Shown here: one piece after another, positions 54,293-62,658 of the stretch
Position numbering within the stretch: the stretch's first letter is position 1
How the letters are laid out: every line of letters starts with the position of its first letter
From: Acetobacteroides hydrogenigenes
Lineage (GTDB): Bacteria > Bacteroidota > Bacteroidia > Bacteroidales > ZOR0009
Direction: 5' to 3'
Assembly: GCF_004340205.1 (NCBI RefSeq)
Contig: NZ_SLWB01000003.1
Location: 186,001-250,000, forward strand
Length of the DNA stretch: 64,000 nt
The notes under the pieces: model-generated
The model's database searches: none
Told to the model about the DNA's origin: nothing
Seen by the model: only the letters and a program-made list of their open reading frames with translations
Translations under genes and position numbers: made by a program

Positions 54293-57200
54293 TTATTTCT
54301 TCAGCTGCTTATACCGGGCGGCCACAATGTCCACCAAGCGGTCGTCGGCGTTGGTGTAGCTGTACAGCGTTAGCCACATGTTCTGCTTGATGCTGCGCTT
54401 CTTGTTGCTGGTTTTGGCAATGGGGGTGTTAAAGGCTTCGTTGGTCGACGAGGCAAACATGTTGCCGGCCGAGGTGTAGACGAAGGTGTAGAACTGGTTG
54501 TTGCCCAGGTCGAGGTGCAGGTACATCCGATGATCCTGGTAGGGCATAAGCTCTATGAAGCCCTTCACCTTTCGGTTGACCTGCTTGCCGCCGATGTTGG
54601 CGATGCCAATGTCGCCCTTCGAGATGTAGGAGCGCGATTTTTTGTCCCACCTTAGCTGCATATCGGTAAGGGTGAGCGTGTGCAGGTACTCCTCCGGAAG
54701 CTTTTCGGGCGTAGGCGTCTTGGCGTAGCTGGCAATAATGGCCTCGGCCTTGGCGTCGCCCAGCAGCTCGCGTAGGGCAACCCTCGAGTTGGGGGTGCTG
54801 TAGTCGAGGGCGGTTTTGGCTCCGGCGGCAACGTCGGCGGCCAGCACGTTAAGCGCTTCGGTGTTGAACAGGAAGTCGAGGGTTACCATTCCGGTAAAGC
54901 TGAGCTCCTTGCTGCCGATGTTCTGAACGGCCTTTCCGGCGGTGGCCAGCTTCACCTCGCCGAGGTCGACGCCCAGCTTCAGCTTGCCCTCGTTCACCAG
55001 CAGGTCGAAGTCGGAGTAGAGGCTCACCATATCGCCGGCGGTATTGGGCCTGCGGATTTTGTCGATGGAGCTCAGCTGGTAGTAGCTGCCGTTGTCGTTG
55101 TAGTAGAGGAAGCCGTTGGGCTGCACGAATGCCGAATCTTCGGTGTACTTGCGTCCGGTAAAGAAGGTGGGGTATACGCTCAGCGAGTCCCTTCGCAGGT
55201 AGGTTCCGGCGTAAACCCGAATCTTATCCACCGTTTGGTAGGGGTTGCTGATGGGGATCATCACCGAGTCGGGCGCTATCTCGGCGGTAAACCTCATCCA
55301 GTTCTTGGGTAGCGACTCGTACTTGTGGGTGAGGCGTGCCCCGCCATCGAAGGTCAGGTGCTTCTTATCCGAGAAGGCCGTTACCTTCCCCTTAAAGCGG
55401 AAGTAGGGGCTTAGGAAGAAGCTGTCCTCGTCCATGATGTTGGCAAACGCGGTGGTCTTGTACTCCCTGTCCACGGTAATGGTGCCAAAGGTGATGGTGT
55501 CTACCTTGCCGTACTTGTCGATGTAGCTGTACAGCCCCTGCCCGTTGAAGCCGTTTCGGCCGCCTACGCTGATGTCCACATCGTAGAAGTGGTGGCTCTT
55601 GGTTTGGCGGTTGGCGTACAGGTCGGCCTTGTAGAGCTTGTCCATAAAGCCCTTGGTGTGTAGGGTTACCGTATCGCGCTTGGGGTTTAGGATTAGCGCA
55701 GCATCGGCAATCAGCAGGTGCCTAACCTTGTTGGCCTGCAGAGTCTTGTTCCGCATGTTGTAGTAGGCCATCGGGGAGGCAAAGCAGAGCGAATCCTGCT
55801 CCTTTACGGTGGCAACAAAGGCGCTTCCCGGAGGAACCTTCCCCTCGTAGGCTAGCGCGTAGCGGTCGGTAATGCTCGGCGGCAGCTGCAGGCTTTCGGG
55901 GGTCGAAACCGTCAGCAGCTGGTTGTTCATGTCCCAGCCCACGCGCTTGGCGTAGGCCAAGTAGGCTAAGTCGGGGTAGAACGAGGTAAAGATGTCGTTC
56001 TTCTTCTCGAACTTGCCCTGGTAGCTCTTCAGGTCGATGCTCGAGGCGATCCCGTTTGATGCAAACAGCCTATTCTCGCGCTTGTCGTCGTAGATCACAA
56101 CGTTGGAGGTATCGCCCTTAAAGGTGTAGGCGGCCATGTCGAAGTTTTTCGACGCTATGGTGGCCGTGTTGACGTCGAGCACGCCGTTGCCCCTTAACCC
56201 GAGAGGCTCAATCACCAGATCGCCGTTGAACGTAACCTGGTTGTCGTATAGGTTAAAGGGCGTTTTGTCCTTAAAGAACTTCATGGTGTTCTGGTAGGGT
56301 CGCCACTTCATCAGGTGCTGCTTGGCGTTTCCGTTGGGATACTCGATGCCCAGCAGCGTGCGCTCTATGGTCATCGACTTCAGGATCGATACGCAGCTGT
56401 CGGGGAAGAAGAGGAAGTCGTTGGAGTTCGACATCGAGCTCAGGTACTTTATCGAACCCTTCCCAATTAGCCCTTCGTTGCTCAGCTTAATGGTGTTGTA
56501 GAACTTACCCTTGCTCTTGTACAGCGTCACCCCCGTGGTGTCCACCTTACGGCTAAAGCCCAGCGACTGGTCGGGCTGAACCACCAGCGTTTCCTGGAAG
56601 GGGGCAAATATATCGGCCGAGTTGAGCTCGCCCTTAAAGCCTAAACTCTCCTTCTCGAAGGTGTTTAGGCTGTCAATCTCGTAGGGGTACACCTTAAAGT
56701 AGAACTTGTCGCGCTTGTATATCCCCCCAAATATGGCCGGATCGTCGTAGTAGATGTACGAATCCTTCTTGCTGGCAAACTTTGGGTAGCTGGGTCGCCG
56801 TTTAAGCCCCGACTTGTTGTTGGGCTCATCTATTCGCAGCGATCCGGTGATGTTCTCCATGGTGGAGGTGATGTTGCTCAGCATTCGGTTTCCCTTGTTG
56901 TCGTACTTGTCGGTTCGGTAGTCGAAGTTCATGGAAACCACCTTGTCCATGTTGATGCTAAAGGCGTCGTAGTCGAACTTAAAGCCATCGCCCTTAAACG
57001 ATACCAGTCCGGCTCGAATCTCTCCATCAAACTCCATATCCCTGTTCTTTTTAAGGATGATGGAGTTGTTCTTTGGGTAAACCTTTACGTTTTGGGTGTC
57101 GGAGAGGTTAATTTGGGGAATCCCAAAGATGGTAAGGTTAAAGTTGCTAAGGTCGAGTATGGCGTTGTTCTGGTTCTTCTTGTTTTCGGAGTTGAAGAGG

Positions 57201-58813
57201 ATGGCGTCGTAGTCCTGTGCGCCATTGCGCGCTCTTAGCGCCTCGCGCAGCTTTGGTGTTGTGGTAAAGACCTTGCTCTCCGAGTCGTACACAACATAGC
57301 CAAGAAAGCCCATCTCTTTAAGCAGGATGTCGCAATCGGCGTTGCTGCGCTTGGCAAAGCGGCTAAGGCCGTCGCAGGTTAGGGGGCTAACCTTTTTCTT
57401 TTGCTGCTCCTTCTCGTACTGTCGGATAAGCGATATCGGATGCTTATCGTCGCGGCGCATCAGGCCGTCGAACATGTCCTGGTTAAAGAAGTTTATCGAT
57501 TCGAAAATGGCCTCACTCTCCGAGCTGCCAAAGGGGGCGTTGAAGTTTAGCACATCCTTCCTCATGTTCCAGTATAGCTGCTCGGAGTAGATTCCAATCT
57601 TGTGGTACGAGTCGAGGTAGGGTGCCCTTGTTAGCATGTTTTGGTTGTCGGATGTAAGCCTGAGCTCGCGCCTTCGGCTATCGAAGTCGAGCAGCTTATT
57701 GGTGTGGACGATAGAATCGGCAAGTAGCCTAATGGTAACCGAAGCGCCGCTCGAGGAGAAGCCATCGCTTCGGATAATGAACGACGGGCTAAGCGCAGTT
57801 ATAAAAGGCTTTTTTGTTCTGATAAAGGTAACCCTTGCTGGTTCCTGCTTCGATCCGTACCCCAGCAGCGTGTGCCCCTTAATGGCAATTCCTCCCTTGT
57901 AGTTGATGGAGTCGAACAAGTTGGTAATGCTGATATTCCTGTTGTAGCTGTAGAAGTGGGGGTAGTACACCAGCTCCTTGGTGTTAACGCTGTTGGGCGA
58001 AAGCGTAAGGGTGCCCAGCAGCGGATTTTTGAATACATCGGTAAAGTAGAAGCTAACGGAGTCAAAATCCTGCTTGGCTTTCACGAAGTTCAGCCGGTAG
58101 CTTTTAAGATCGGCATATACCTTTGTGGTGTCGTAGCCTGCCTTTTTCCAGAAGATCCTGCCGTTTTTCCCTATAAATTGAGATGTAAATGGTAGTACTG
58201 TTCCTGTGGTTCCGAATATGCTTACCGTGTCGTGTTCGGCAATGTACGATATGCGCGAGTTGGATGTGCTGAGGTAAAGCGTAGTGTCAAACCTGTAGGT
58301 AAACTCTTTGTCGGAAAGGCTCCATTTGATGTAGTTGTTCGCATAAAACGCCTTCTCCTTGTTAAGGGTTGTGGGGCTTTCAAAAATAGAAAGAACGAGA
58401 GGTTTGGGGTATTTTTTGTGGCTAAGCAATAGCTTAACAGCCTTGCTCCATGCTTCAAATCCTTTTATCATAGAGGTCGAATCGAAGAAAACCATCATAC
58501 TCTTAAGGTAGCTGGTAAGGAAAGGGTCGGCAGTAAGGTTTCGTTCTTCGAATTGAGACGTGGTTTCTACTATTACCTTTCGTTGCTCGTCATTTAGCGA
58601 TGGCGATTGCCAAAACTTTGCGAAATCGGCCAGAAACTTGGTATTTGCTTCGCTTTTGTGGCTTGCTAGCCTGTTGGCAACATCAAGGGGGAATGCTTTA
58701 AGATCATCGGGAAGCTCTACTTTATCCTTTTTGCTAGGATACGATAGGCACACAAGAAGCAGCAAAAAAGCCGTAGCTGCTAACGAAACGATATGCTTAC
58801 TGTTGGTTTTCAA
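54293..58813 (-). CDS. Giant exported beta-rich protein, unknown function
   Basis: 1506 residues. The N-terminus is a signal peptide or anchor (MKTNSKHIVSLAATAFLLLLVCLS). Residues about 35-170 are helical; the rest is dominated by alternating beta-strands with recurring blocks of the kind FKGELNS, FNGDLVIEPLGLRGNGVLD, FDGEIRAGLVSFKGDGF and FKGKVTAFSDKKHLTFDGG, that is, a strand-G-strand pattern ending in G-D/N. It recalls the repetitive strands of AsmA- or LptD-like envelope proteins but no named domain is recognisable. Probably periplasmic or outer-membrane associated. GC-rich in its 3' two-thirds. Confidence 0.82.
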   Translation of the reverse strand: MKTNSKHIVSLAATAFLLLLVCLSYPSKKDKVELPDDLKAFPLDVANRLASHKSEANTKFLADFAKFWQSPSLNDEQRKVIVETTSQFEERNLTADPFLTSYLKSMMVFFDSTSMIKGFEAWSKAVKLLLSHKKYPKPLVLSIFESPTTLNKEKAFYANNYIKWSLSDKEFTYRFDTTLYLSTSNSRISYIAEHDTVSIFGTTGTVLPFTSQFIGKNGRIFWKKAGYDTTKVYADLKSYRLNFVKAKQDFDSVSFYFTDVFKNPLLGTLTLSPNSVNTKELVYYPHFYSYNRNISITNLFDSINYKGGIAIKGHTLLGYGSKQEPARVTFIRTKKPFITALSPSFIIRSDGFSSSGASVTIRLLADSIVHTNKLLDFDSRRRELRLTSDNQNMLTRAPYLDSYHKIGIYSEQLYWNMRKDVLNFNAPFGSSESEAIFESINFFNQDMFDGLMRRDDKHPISLIRQYEKEQQKKKVSPLTCDGLSRFAKRSNADCDILLKEMGFLGYVVYDSESKVFTTTPKLREALRARNGAQDYDAILFNSENKKNQNNAILDLSNFNLTIFGIPQINLSDTQNVKVYPKNNSIILKKNRDMEFDGEIRAGLVSFKGDGFKFDYDAFSINMDKVVSMNFDYRTDKYDNKGNRMLSNITSTMENITGSLRIDEPNNKSGLKRRPSYPKFASKKDSYIYYDDPAIFGGIYKRDKFYFKVYPYEIDSLNTFEKESLGFKGELNSADIFAPFQETLVVQPDQSLGFSRKVDTTGVTLYKSKGKFYNTIKLSNEGLIGKGSIKYLSSMSNSNDFLFFPDSCVSILKSMTIERTLLGIEYPNGNAKQHLMKWRPYQNTMKFFKDKTPFNLYDNQVTFNGDLVIEPLGLRGNGVLDVNTATIASKNFDMAAYTFKGDTSNVVIYDDKRENRLFASNGIASSIDLKSYQGKFEKKNDIFTSFYPDLAYLAYAKRVGWDMNNQLLTVSTPESLQLPPSITDRYALAYEGKVPPGSAFVATVKEQDSLCFASPMAYYNMRNKTLQANKVRHLLIADAALILNPKRDTVTLHTKGFMDKLYKADLYANRQTKSHHFYDVDISVGGRNGFNGQGLYSYIDKYGKVDTITFGTITVDREYKTTAFANIMDEDSFFLSPYFRFKGKVTAFSDKKHLTFDGGARLTHKYESLPKNWMRFTAEIAPDSVMIPISNPYQTVDKIRVYAGTYLRRDSLSVYPTFFTGRKYTEDSAFVQPNGFLYYNDNGSYYQLSSIDKIRRPNTAGDMVSLYSDFDLLVNEGKLKLGVDLGEVKLATAGKAVQNIGSKELSFTGMVTLDFLFNTEALNVLAADVAAGAKTALDYSTPNSRVALRELLGDAKAEAIIASYAKTPTPEKLPEEYLHTLTLTDMQLRWDKKSRSYISKGDIGIANIGGKQVNRKVKGFIELMPYQDHRMYLHLDLGNNQFYTFVYTSAGNMFASSTNEAFNTPIAKTSNKKRSIKQNMWLTLYSYTNADDRLVDIVAARYKQLKK

Positions 58814-59041: not shown

Positions 59042-59545
59042 ATGAAAAAATTCTTTTTAGTAGTAGCTGTGGTATTGGTTGCAGCTATAGCAGGTAATGC
59101 TCAGGACAAAAAGTGGAACGTAGGAGTAGGTGGAGGCTTATCTATACCTACCGGTGATGCTTCAGATTTTGTTAAGACAGGATTTAATGGTTTCGTACTT
59201 GGAACCTACAATTTTACTCCAAAGTTTGCTGCAGGTGTAGAGATGAACTATACCATTCTTCCAGGTAAAAGCATTGGTGGTTATGATATTTCCGACTCCG
59301 AAGTTGCCGCATTCCTAGCAAAAGGTATTTACACCTTTACAGAAGAAGGATTCCGTCCCTATGTTAGCGGTGCACTTGGACTTTATTCTCATAAGGATGG
59401 TGACACTAAGGCTGGTATTGCTGCAGAGGCAGGCGTTAAGTACAACCAATTTGGACTTGGTGCTGCATACCATATGGCTGGAGAAGAGAATGACTTTACC
59501 TTCTCATACATTCAGCTAAACTTCACCTACACCTTTAGCTTCTAG
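59042..59545 (+). CDS. Outer-membrane beta-barrel protein (8-strand type)
   Basis: 167 residues from the ATG at 59042, giving a signal peptide (MKKFFLVVAVVLVAAIAGNAQ). The mature part is a small OmpA/OmpX-like barrel: VGVGGGLSIPTGDASDF, GFNGFVLGTYNFTPKFAAGVEMNYTI, FRPYVSGALGLY, and the aromatic end FTYTFSF expected for BAM recognition. Paralogous to the gene at 60474. It has its own terminator. Confidence 0.9.
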   Translation: MKKFFLVVAVVLVAAIAGNAQDKKWNVGVGGGLSIPTGDASDFVKTGFNGFVLGTYNFTPKFAAGVEMNYTILPGKSIGGYDISDSEVAAFLAKGIYTFTEEGFRPYVSGALGLYSHKDGDTKAGIAAEAGVKYNQFGLGAAYHMAGEENDFTFSYIQLNFTYTFSF

Positions 59546-59562
59546 AGAAATTATTATAGTAC

Positions 59563-59600
59563 AACAAAAAGCCACTTCTTTTCGGAGTGGCTTTTTTGTT
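59563..59600 (+). terminator. Terminator after the first barrel gene
   Basis: AACAAAAAGCCACTTC and GGAGTGGCTTTTTTGTT pair with one G-T pair. Confidence 0.88.
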
Positions 59601-59727
59601 TATCTAGTATATATAGCAGAACCTCCCTTTTGTATTACTTAATAGTTGGTGTTTGATTGTATCGGCGTAAAGTTTGAAGGTATCCCTACTTTTGTGCCGA
59701 TTTACTAATCAAAATAAAAAGGTAACT

Positions 59728-60348
59728 ATGAAGAAAGTTTTTTTGGTAGTAGCAATAGCTCTTGCTGCGGTAGCTGCAAATGCTCAAGTAAAATTTGGTC
59801 CTAAGGTAGGTTTGAACTTCTCTACCATGTCATCTAAGGGAGGTGGATTTTCTGCCGATGCAAAAATGCGTACCGGATACCAAATTGGTATGGTTTTTCA
59901 GGGAGATATTGCTCCAAATGTATTCGTTCAACCAAGCATCCTTTTTTCGTCTAAGGGATCGAAGTATGATAATGGCCTTATTGAAAAAGTAGTGGCAAAC
60001 TACATTGATGTACCTGTAAACTTTGGCTACAGAATCAATTTGGGGGGCGCTAACCTTAACCTTTTGGCGGGTCCTTATTTCGCGTATGGTGTTGGAGGGA
60101 AAGTTACCTCTACATTGGATGTAATCTTGGGAAAGATTACTGTTGAGGAAGATATTAAATGGGGATCTGATAAGGATAAGGATCATTTTAAGCCATTTGA
60201 CATGGGGATTAACCTTGGCGGCGGAGTTGAGTTTAACAGCTTTCAGGTGTCGCTTCAGTACGGATTTGGCTTGCTAAACATCAACCCAAATTCTGATATT
60301 ACAAACAAAAATGGGGTGTTAAGCCTTTCTGCTGCATTCCTTTTCTAG
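59728..60348 (+). CDS. Outer-membrane beta-barrel protein (PorT-like domain)
   Basis: 206 residues from the ATG at 59728 (preceded by AAAAAGG). Signal peptide MKKVFLVVAIALAAVAANAQ. The start KFGPKVGLNFSTM and the GYQIGMVFQGDIAPNVFVQPSILFSSKGSK block are typical of the Bacteroidota outer-membrane beta-barrel domain (PF13568). It ends LSLSAAFLF. A -7-like TACTTTTG is at 59687-59694. Function unknown. Confidence 0.9.
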   Translation: MKKVFLVVAIALAAVAANAQVKFGPKVGLNFSTMSSKGGGFSADAKMRTGYQIGMVFQGDIAPNVFVQPSILFSSKGSKYDNGLIEKVVANYIDVPVNFGYRINLGGANLNLLAGPYFAYGVGGKVTSTLDVILGKITVEEDIKWGSDKDKDHFKPFDMGINLGGGVEFNSFQVSLQYGFGLLNINPNSDITNKNGVLSLSAAFLF

Positions 60349-60360
60349 AATAGCTCATAA

Positions 60361-60400
60361 GACAAAAAAAGGAGGGACTCTTTGGGTCCCTTTTTTTGTC
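60361..60400 (+). terminator. Terminator after the second barrel gene
   Basis: GACAAAAAAAGG..GGGAC pairs with GTCCC..TTTTTTTGTC around TCTTTGG. Confidence 0.85.
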
Positions 60401-60473
60401 TATTGCTTGAAATTTGAGATGGCTTGGCGTAGATTTCTGAATGTTTCGAATCGGCATCAAATCTGAGTTTGCC

Positions 60474-61022
60474 ATGAAAACGCTTGCTTTAATCGTAGCT
60501 ATTCTGATGTTTTGTGTAGCAGGTAATGCACAAAATAGGATGTTGGGCTTCGGGTTTGGTGGTGGGATTGCCATTCCTACCGACGATGCTGCCGATTATA
60601 GCAAGATAGGTTTTGATGGCTTTGTAAATGGGATGTTAAGCTTCTCCTCTAGTTTTAATGCCGGAGTTATTTTGGGCTACGCTTCCTTTCCTTCAAAGAT
60701 GGTAGATACGCTGAATCTGCCAAATACTGTAGTAAGGGCATTTCTTTTGAGAGGAGCCTATACGTTTACTTCCGAACAGCGTATTCATCCATATATTGCA
60801 GCATTTGGTGGGCTATACCATACTAAAATAAACAAGTGCCTTACTGTTACAGGGAACGAGGTGGTATCGGTAAATATTACAGATAGCAGCTACGGGTATG
60901 GCGTAGAAGCCGGTGTGCGGCGAGGTCATCTTTCTGTTGGGGTTGCATACCATGTTGTTGGATTCGATTTTAAGTACGTACTTGTTAATGTAGGGTACAG
61001 CCTCTTTTTTAAAATACGGTAG
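60474..61022 (+). CDS. Outer-membrane beta-barrel protein, paralog of 59042
   Basis: 182 residues from the ATG at 60474. Signal peptide MKTLALIVAILMFCVAGNAQ. It aligns by eye with the first barrel: GFGGGIAIPTDDAADYSKIGFDGFVNGML against GVGGGLSIPTGDASDFVKTGFNGFVLGTY, and VRAFLLRGAYTFTSEQ against VAAFLAKGIYTFTEEG. It ends VNVGYSLFFKIR. It is therefore a diverged duplicate with an unrelated barrel gene in between. Confidence 0.88.
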   Translation: MKTLALIVAILMFCVAGNAQNRMLGFGFGGGIAIPTDDAADYSKIGFDGFVNGMLSFSSSFNAGVILGYASFPSKMVDTLNLPNTVVRAFLLRGAYTFTSEQRIHPYIAAFGGLYHTKINKCLTVTGNEVVSVNITDSSYGYGVEAGVRRGHLSVGVAYHVVGFDFKYVLVNVGYSLFFKIR

Positions 61023-61110
61023 CTTTGAACCATCTGCTTTAGTCGTATCTCCATGGTATTTGTTCAAGTTTTCTTAGCTTTGCAGGCTAACAAACCCAGA
61101 ATAGGTAGCT

Positions 61111-62658
61111 ATGCGTTATAAGTTAAGGGGATTTCTTTTAGCAGCCAGCACTATACTCCCTTATACGCTATTGGCCGATAGGCCATCCGACAGCGTTGCT
61201 GTAAGGAAACCCAATATTGTAGTAGTTCTTGCCAGCGATCTTGGTTATGGCGATCTAGGAGTATATGGTCAATCGAAGATCGAAACGCCCTATATCGACC
61301 GGTTGGCATCTCAAGGGGCTCGTTTTACCAATTTTTACAGCGGATCGTCTTCGTTTGCGCCATCGCTTTGTAGCATGCTTACTGGAAAGCATGTAGGGAA
61401 GGCTGCGATTCGTGGAACCGACGAATGGGTAGAGCGTGGCAGCGTAATGAACTACGTTAAGGTTCTCATGGATTCTACCCTAGAAGGTCAGCGTCCTATG
61501 CCACTTGGCGAAGAAACGATTGCCAACAGGGTTAGGGAAAAGGGGTATGTCACCGGAGCTGTTGGTCTGTGGGGCTTAGGCTCTGCTACTACCCAAGGCT
61601 CTCCTTTGCTCCATGGTTTTGACTCGTTCTATGGCTACACATGCCTTCGCCAGGCGCAAACGTACTATCCAAAGTACCTGTGGCGAAACGATAGTAAGGT
61701 ATCGATGGATAATGCGCTTGTTTTTCCTAATATGAAGCTTCCTACTAATGCCGATCCTTACAAGGACGAGAGCTATCTGTCGTATACGCTCGAACACTAT
61801 GCACCAGATTCTATACTGATGGCTGCGCTAAGGTTTGTTGAAGTAAACAAGTCAAATCCGTTTTTCCTGCTTTACTCTGCACAGCTTCCACAAGCTCCGC
61901 TACAAGTACCACAAGAGCGTGTAAGACGGTATCGCCTAAAGTTTGGCGAAGAGGAACCGTACCTTGGCTTGAATGGAGGCTGTCCGAACCGAACTCCACG
62001 AGCAACATATGCCGCTATGGTATCGTACCTCGACGATCAGGTAGGAATGCTAGTTGAGAAACTAAAGGCCGAAGGGGTGTACGATAATACGATCATCATC
62101 TTTACATCGGCAACAGGAGCAGCTTCGCAGTCGGGTGTGGATGGCGCGTTTTTTGAGAGTGCAGGAAAGCACCCGCTAGGTAAGGGGAGAGGTAGTGGGT
62201 TCCTTTTCGAATCGGGGATTAAAGTACCTATGATAGCAGTATGGCCATCTGTTATTGCACCTAATCAGGTTGTCGATCAGATTGGGATTGGCTACGATGT
62301 TTTTTCAACTCTTGCGGATGTGGCCGGGGTAGATAGCGTGGCATCTGGCGATGGAATTAGCCTGCTGCCGGTACTGAAGGGAAAGTCTCAGGAGAATCAG
62401 CATGAGTACCTTTACTGGGAGAATGCCGATAACCTAGGGCATATTGCCCTAAGGATGGGAAAGTGGAAGCTGCTAGGGCGTAACATGAGCTACGACGAAC
62501 CCTACTTTGAACTATACGATTTGGAGGCCGATCCAGAGGAAAACAACGACGTTTCGGAGCAAAATCCTGATGTTGTTTGTCGGATGGTGGATCTGATTCT
62601 TAATGCTCGAACATCGCCCTCAATTTCGAGTTTCAAGCTACGGTATTTGGAGGATTGA
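61111..62658 (+). CDS. Sulfatase-fold protein with a substituted active site (pseudo-sulfatase)
   Basis: 515 residues, signal peptide to about LLAD, then a full-length arylsulfatase A-like fold with family landmarks PNIVVVL, LGYGDLGVYG, TPYIDRLASQGARF, LHGFDSFYGY, YYPKYLWRND, KVPMIAVWP and ELYDLEADPEENND. Yet the key residues differ: the C-x-P-S-R site reads F82-A-P-S-L86, the first metal Asp of the DD pair is Ser 42, D-N is Ala 334-Thr 335, LPHAPLQ is LPQAPLQ, and GKWGLG is GLWGLG. Hydrolysis is not expected. Own -7-like TAGCTTTG at 61075-61082. No frameshift; selection seems to keep the fold. Confidence 0.9.
   Translation: MRYKLRGFLLAASTILPYTLLADRPSDSVAVRKPNIVVVLASDLGYGDLGVYGQSKIETPYIDRLASQGARFTNFYSGSSSFAPSLCSMLTGKHVGKAAIRGTDEWVERGSVMNYVKVLMDSTLEGQRPMPLGEETIANRVREKGYVTGAVGLWGLGSATTQGSPLLHGFDSFYGYTCLRQAQTYYPKYLWRNDSKVSMDNALVFPNMKLPTNADPYKDESYLSYTLEHYAPDSILMAALRFVEVNKSNPFFLLYSAQLPQAPLQVPQERVRRYRLKFGEEEPYLGLNGGCPNRTPRATYAAMVSYLDDQVGMLVEKLKAEGVYDNTIIIFTSATGAASQSGVDGAFFESAGKHPLGKGRGSGFLFESGIKVPMIAVWPSVIAPNQVVDQIGIGYDVFSTLADVAGVDSVASGDGISLLPVLKGKSQENQHEYLYWENADNLGHIALRMGKWKLLGRNMSYDEPYFELYDLEADPEENNDVSEQNPDVVCRMVDLILNARTSPSISSFKLRYLED

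Follow-up and report, generated by a model that had tools for sequence, protein, structure and literature searches.

A catalytically dismantled S1_20-type sulfatase retained under purifying selection in Acetobacteroides hydrogenigenes

The window analysed here, a 64,000-nt stretch of the Acetobacteroides hydrogenigenes genome (contig NZ_SLWB01000003.1, positions 186,001 to 250,000), contains at 61111-62658 (+) an open frame of 515 aa without stop whose product is a sulfatase homolog designated below as the pseudo-sulfatase. The location of this gene, of its annotated parts and of the flanking genes is given in Table 1. All three genomes of the genus returned by our searches (the genome of the window, G000, and those of two congeners, G001 and G002) carry the gene and have the same gene order, namely the 1506-aa gene in divergent orientation, the barrel gene or genes, and the pseudo-sulfatase, with three barrel genes in G000 and G002 and one in G001. 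The barrel genes of the window (59042-61022) are small and arranged in tandem, the first and third being mutually related. The 1506-aa protein represents a widespread uncharacterised family that was matched at 1e-40 in 72 of 99 genomes (its own, the two congeners and the rest from the same order). In G002, a 710-aa gene (L124:7127-9259) that looks glycoside-hydrolase-3-like by eye occurs between an aldo-keto reductase gene and the pseudo-sulfatase and is absent from that place in the window. A Pfam scan of nine neighbouring proteins revealed none of the SusC/SusD type and no other product of a polysaccharide-utilisation gene.

Table 1. Features of the pseudo-sulfatase locus (positions in the window)
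Feature	Position	Strand	Remark
1506-aa conserved protein, divergent, syntenic in 3/3 species	54293..58813	-	no Pfam/NCBIfam match
Outer-membrane beta-barrel protein 1, syntenic in 3/3 species	59042..59545	+	
Outer-membrane beta-barrel protein 2, at this place in 2/3 species	59728..60348	+	
Outer-membrane beta-barrel-like protein 3, at this place in 2/3 species	60474..61022	+	21 bits, below Pfam cut-off of 28.7
TAGCTTTG, match to Bacteroidota -7 promoter element (TAnnTTTG)	61075..61082	+	same 8-mer upstream of 3/3 orthologs
Pseudo-sulfatase gene, 515 aa, S1_20-like fold	61111..62658	+	frame, Pfam, tree, structure match
Signal-peptide region, ca. residues 1-23	61111..61179	+	by eye; no lipobox Cys seen
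Codon 42, metal-ligand Asp to Ser	61234..61236	+	
Codons 82-86, former C/S-x-P-x-R formylglycine motif, now FAPSL	61354..61368	+	
Codons 97-138, segment of extra constraint in the three orthologs, probably pocket rim; includes E105	61399..61524	+	
Codon 153, catalytic Lys to Leu	61567..61569	+	
Codons 166-190, second highly conserved segment (LRQAQTYYP), H183 to Gln in 3/3 species	61606..61680	+	
Codon 261, active-site His to Gln in 3/3 species	61891..61893	+	
Codons 334-335, metal-ligand Asp-Asn to Ala-Thr	62110..62115	+	
Codon 362, conserved active-site Lys to Ser	62194..62196	+	

The exact octamer TAGCTTTG, which we take to be a Bacteroidota -7 element (consensus TAnnTTTG), occurs no more than 60 bases upstream of the start codon of each ortholog, while 0.06 occurrences per 100 bases are expected from the window. 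An 18-base stretch around it is common to G000 and G002, in which it is found once per genome, and is absent from G001; a generic promoter scan yielded no more sites than were found in shuffled sequences. The barrel genes and the pseudo-sulfatase probably form separate units, because terminators follow barrel gene 1 (detected by scan) and barrel gene 2 (seen by eye).

In agreement with the initial annotation, which had described an intact full-length arylsulfatase-like frame, the product matches Pfam Sulfatase with 144 bits over residues 34-407 (119 bits above the cut-off of 25) and Pfam SGSH_C with 63 bits. Its AlphaFold2 model, computed from an alignment of 31 rows that did not include the two orthologs and from which L076 and L089 were omitted owing to a stop within their stated ranges, has a pLDDT of 88.1 and a pTM of 0.89, with values below 50 confined to residues 1-29 and to residues 47-51 that adjoin the former metal site. 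No membrane helix was seen by eye beyond the signal peptide and, by a crude count, the single hydrophobic stretch of the G002 ortholog (L134) is its signal peptide, with no N-terminal transmembrane domain. The protein looks soluble and secreted.

Residue by residue, the substitutions to S42, F82, L86 and A334-T335 reported in the initial annotation were recovered, and the Lys to Leu change in GLWGLG and the His to Gln change in LPQAP fall on residues 153 and 261, respectively. The HAH to QAQ replacement is also real, although it had been placed at 182-184 and lies at 181-183, the lost His being residue 183. A further loss, absent from that annotation, is a Lys to Ser change at 362. That every catalytic or metal-binding position is altered holds for nearly all of them but not for the second metal Asp (D43) or for Pro84, which are both kept. 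In the window protein, D43 is the sole survivor of the calcium ligand set (D42, D43, D334, N335), and R86, K153, H261 and K362, presumably the sulfate contacts and catalytic acid/base in S1 sulfatases, have become L, L, Q and S. The formylglycine motif C/S-x-P/A-x-R is absent from the window protein (FAPSL) as well as from its orthologs in G002 (FAPSQ) and G001 (DAPSL). By comparison, D42, D43, P84, R86, K153, H183, H261, D334, N335 and K362 are kept by all 93 enzymes of the surrounding clade, with Cys (80) or Ser (13) at position 82. The single base that separates codon 82 from a Cys codon has no diagnostic value, since Ser may have been present ancestrally; indeed, the ten sulfatases of the same genus that have the motif and were inspected are all Ser-type.

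Close homologs were gathered from the order (393 genomes), the class (395 genomes) and at least 80 loci of a named collection; the order and class searches reported nothing weaker than E 1e-125 and 1e-140, with at most three candidates scored per genome. This resulted in 127 frames, 108 of which were distinct, full-length and retained. D42, R86, K153 and H261 are present in 105 of these, with Cys in 90 and Ser in 15 at position 82, and the remaining three are the orthologs described here. In a tree of 110 rows (the 108 homologs and two PDB chains; quick method, midpoint root), these three form one clade (SH-aLRT 100) with a stem of 1.47 changes per site, nested among S1_20-like enzymes inside the clade that contains 7ana. 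Removing 14 distant rows left 93 enzyme-like and 3 pseudo-sulfatase rows for the clade analyses. No relative was confirmed in viral contigs.

The orthologs of G002 and G001 have full frames with 75% and 59% identity to the window protein, and both have lost the active site, with LASDL / FAPSQ / GLWG / RQAQ / LPQ / SANG motifs in the former and LGNDL / DAPSL / GQWG / RQAQ / LAQ / SDNG motifs in the latter. Seven new residues are common to all three proteins (V81S, N103T, Q179L, H183Q, H261Q, Y290G and G368S), and the three differ from one another at positions 82 (F, F, D), 42, 86, 153, 334, 335 and 362. The G001 ortholog retains D43, D334, N335 and K362 and has an Asp at the place of the nucleophile; the loss of the active site looks stepwise when read from these alignments, since D334, N335 and K362 are still present in G001. 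Each pseudo-sulfatase has 5-6 His, compared with 11-16 in the eight enzymes counted.

Selection on the frame was estimated from three orthologs only, whose dS of 1.8-3.0 is near saturation: pairwise dN/dS is 0.089, 0.100 and 0.109 under a codon model, with log-likelihood gains over neutrality of 182, 134 and 128, and 0.090, 0.110 and 0.121 over the whole frame. Values were lower (0.007-0.086) in all 13 enzyme pairs of the clade, which were hand-picked from close tree pairs and several of which are saturated. The constraint on the pseudo-sulfatase therefore looks strong but weaker than that on the clade enzymes. An active sulfatase pair of another subfamily within the same genus gave a higher value (0.134), a second such pair being too saturated, and the neighbour genes compared between G000 and G002 range from 0.03 to 0.12. 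When neutral drift was simulated, the frame stayed free of stops in 10 of 300 runs at 0.05 changes per site and in none of 300 at 0.1.

Conservation of at least 95% in the 93 clade enzymes is found at 131 positions, and all three pseudo-sulfatases have kept the conserved residue at 103 of them. The ten active-site positions included in this set account for 5 losses in all three proteins and 8 in at least one, versus 8 and 20 for the other 121 positions (Fisher p 0.0008 for the all-three comparison). Blocks of differing constraint had been chosen post hoc after viewing the alignment, and the test was redone as a whole-protein scan with a maximum statistic against matched enzyme trios, which share rows and hence are not independent. 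The strongest excess of constraint corresponds to residues 97-138 (z 5.7), where a 42-residue window as extreme occurred in none of 1000 trios; with 25 residues the excess is at 114-138 (0/1000), while the 15-residue scan is weaker, its excess being equalled in 38 of 1000. Deficits were found around the lost His261, at 240-281 (42 residues, 3/1000) and 267-281 (15 residues, 1/1000), and in the metal loop at 39-63 (25 residues, 8/1000). Segment 166-190 is 0.88 identical among the three pseudo-sulfatases, but the enzymes conserve it as well, with 12 of 400 trios reaching this level, and blocks 222-258 and 280-312 do not differ between pseudo-sulfatases and enzymes. Overall, constraint is relaxed in the active-site regions and increased at 97-138.

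The best solved relatives by sequence are 7ana (449 bits) and 7an1 (261 bits), and the best structure match of the model is 7anb (Z 60.3, rmsd 1.5 over 470 residues, 45% identity), with a Z of 46.7 for 7an1. The latter shares its sequence with 7oqd/9thu, and 7oqd and 9thu-9thw are assigned to the S1_20 sulfatase BT1636 in PMC13383068, which also provides fluorogenic 3S-Gal and 3S-GalNAc substrates. The 7ana/7anb entries probably represent a second S1_20 enzyme, BT1622, a label that we infer. Subfamily S1_15 was considered and rejected, the S1_15 structures 7oze, 7p26, 7ozc and 6s20 scoring far below the S1_20 ones. By alignment and entry numbering, E105 and Q183 of the window protein correspond to E100 and H177 of BT1636, which we take to contact galactose O2 and O4, respectively. 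PMC10154612 describes for S1_20 a Glu and an Arg that contact galactose O2 and a His that contacts O4. Q183, present in all three pseudo-sulfatases, probably occupies the place of such a His. Judged by the alignment of E105 with E100 and by these residue roles, segment 97-138 probably forms the sugar-pocket rim, so that the segment under extra constraint would contain the retained sugar-contact Glu, and the losses affect the sulfate site, the O4 His and most of the metal site. The same segment could equally be a protein interface. The pocket has been remodelled and may not hold galactose, because N103, Q179, Y290 and G368, besides H183, are replaced in all three proteins.

Ser-type sulfatases and one anaerobic maturase each were found in G000 and G001. 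In contrast, G002, a single-contig genome that is 96% complete, gave no match to the anaerobic maturase at 1e-30 and no match to the window protein at 1e-8 other than the ortholog. Its eight other sulfatase-superfamily frames (even numbers L136-L150) comprise five multi-spanning and three shorter ones, none with a credible formylglycine motif, the only look-alike being SRAAR in the multi-spanning L140. The own genome has a paralog with 43% identity to the window protein (G000:C10:61580-62938; L020/L001) which adjoins the anaerobic maturase gene and which differs from it in having intact LADDM/SAPSR/GKWG/QAH/PH/SDNG motifs. A Ser-type sulfatase gene on the same contig (L003, G000:C10:75918-77045) displays an in-frame TAG and is possibly a truly decaying gene, in contrast to the one in the window.

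These data indicate that 61111-62658 encodes an S1_20-type sulfatase whose catalytic site has been dismantled and whose fold and frame remain intact, under purifying selection. Its most probable present function, to which we give about an even chance, is that of a non-catalytic secreted binding protein, predicted to reuse the galactoside pocket most likely in a lectin-like manner. The ancestor would have been a secreted 3-O-sulfogalactoside (3S-Gal/GalNAc) sulfatase, and the lineage would have lost the nucleophile and the sulfate-binding cations, then more of the metal site, while the rim of the sugar subsite (probably 97-138, with E105) was kept and tightened. The present-day protein, presumably exported, would then act as a binding protein in the periplasm or at the cell surface that most likely recognises, lectin-like and without hydrolysis, a neutral glycan corresponding to the old product and not to the old substrate, with Gln183 taking over from the His by which S1_20 enzymes recognise galactose O4. 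The favoured ligand, with a probability that comes close to even, is a neutral glycan bound in the sugar subsite. Binding of the old sulfated substrate via the sulfate site seems unlikely because the window protein lacks R86, K153, H183, H261 and K362, along with three of the four metal ligands examined. The sulfated-glycan binding suggested in the initial annotation is thus improbable at the classical sulfate subsite, which has lost its cationic residues, whereas a glycan at the pocket rim is plausible and preferred. More tentatively, the whole history may be that of a secreted galactoside-3-O-sulfatase turned into a sugar-binding or sensing protein by removal of the sulfate subsite and hardening of the rim, and kept even in a species without a detectable working formylglycine sulfatase or anaerobic maturase.

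Other readings of the locus were weighed against this one. The protein might instead be a non-catalytic envelope scaffold or sensor, a platform for protein or lipid binding like the periplasmic domain of YejM/PbgA that works together with its barrel neighbours; a barrel gene adjoins the pseudo-sulfatase in all three species and the over-constrained 97-138 segment could serve as an interface, but the species differ in having one or three barrel genes, no membrane helix was seen beyond the signal peptide, and the terminators after barrel genes 1 and 2 together with a -7-like element proper to the pseudo-sulfatase leave co-expression unsupported. This role ranks second in probability and is less likely than not. 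It is less probable still that a different chemistry, based on another nucleophile or free of metal, now operates in the pocket. Purifying selection on the frame, the seven new residues common to the three orthologs and the G001 protein, with D43, D334, N335, K362 and an Asp at the nucleophile place, would be in line with a new enzyme, yet the nucleophile position and positions 42, 86, 153, 334, 335 and 362 vary among the orthologs, which a conserved mechanism should not allow, and the proteins are poor in His (5-6 versus 11-16 in the enzymes).

An auxiliary role towards active sulfatases or their maturase, be it as helper, decoy or regulator, close to the regulatory function that had been envisaged in the initial annotation, would be conceivable in G000 and G001, where Ser-type sulfatases and a maturase coexist with the pseudo-sulfatase. 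G002 argues against it, since the gene is kept there at 75% identity with neither another formylglycine sulfatase nor an anaerobic maturase detected, which makes this role very improbable; a helper of active sulfatases is contradicted unless such sulfatases are encoded in sequence missing from this 96% complete genome. Finally, a decaying pseudogene or a sequencing error was rejected and is the least probable reading of all. Many active-site changes and a dN/dS above that of the 13 clade enzyme pairs (several of them saturated) might be read as decay, but the loss is common to three separate genomes with intact frames, dN/dS is ca. 0.1 and below the 0.134 of the active pair in the same genus, the promoter-like element and gene order are shared by the three, and stop-free frames soon disappear in the drift simulation. 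The error or fresh pseudogene that the initial annotation had named as its refutation is therefore not what was found in the congeners; its proposal of a conserved non-enzyme is supported, as a prediction from sequence, by three syntenic orthologs devoid of an active site, each with a -7-like element and all under purifying selection.

Compared with the S1_20 enzymes of Bacteroides thetaiotaomicron, the window protein has the same whole-length fold and belongs to the clade of 7ana, with BT1636 outside that clade. Fold and tree place are thus those of S1_20, whereas the formylglycine site, the complete calcium set (three ligands being lost), the sulfate contacts and the galactose-O4 His, now Gln, are not. 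Loss of catalytic residues common to the orthologs and purifying selection, which together define a pseudoenzyme, are both found here, and the protein is accordingly predicted to be inactive. Genome surveys often equate sulfatase genes with sulfatase activity, and the present gene, whose Pfam Sulfatase score lies 119 bits above the cut-off, would be miscounted as one. If glycan binding were confirmed, it would represent a soluble S1-type pseudo-sulfatase in which the stepwise loss can be traced and the gain in constraint is mapped, that is, a tractable case of an enzyme turning into a receptor.

Pseudoenzymes as such are known, and YejM is a known pseudo-hydrolase of this superfamily; among the matches listed in the open-licence literature, no paper dealt with a soluble, genus-conserved S1_20 pseudo-sulfatase. 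PMC13125744 describes the periplasmic domain of YejM/PbgA/LapC as an arylsulfatase/LtaS-type fold devoid of catalytic residues and presents YejM as an LPS-sensing pseudo-hydrolase scaffold, in which a catalytically dead fold has been retained for binding with a regulatory purpose. The window protein resembles it in fold and in the loss of catalytic residues. Unlike YejM, which resides in the inner membrane, it seems to be soluble and secreted, and it is not a member of the YejM family, scoring 24.2 bits against the curated YejM model with a cut-off of 825. By analogy, YejM can nevertheless be regarded as its nearest functional counterpart, and the reuse seen in YejM/PbgA (PMC13125744) indicates that a sulfatase-type fold can become a binding scaffold.
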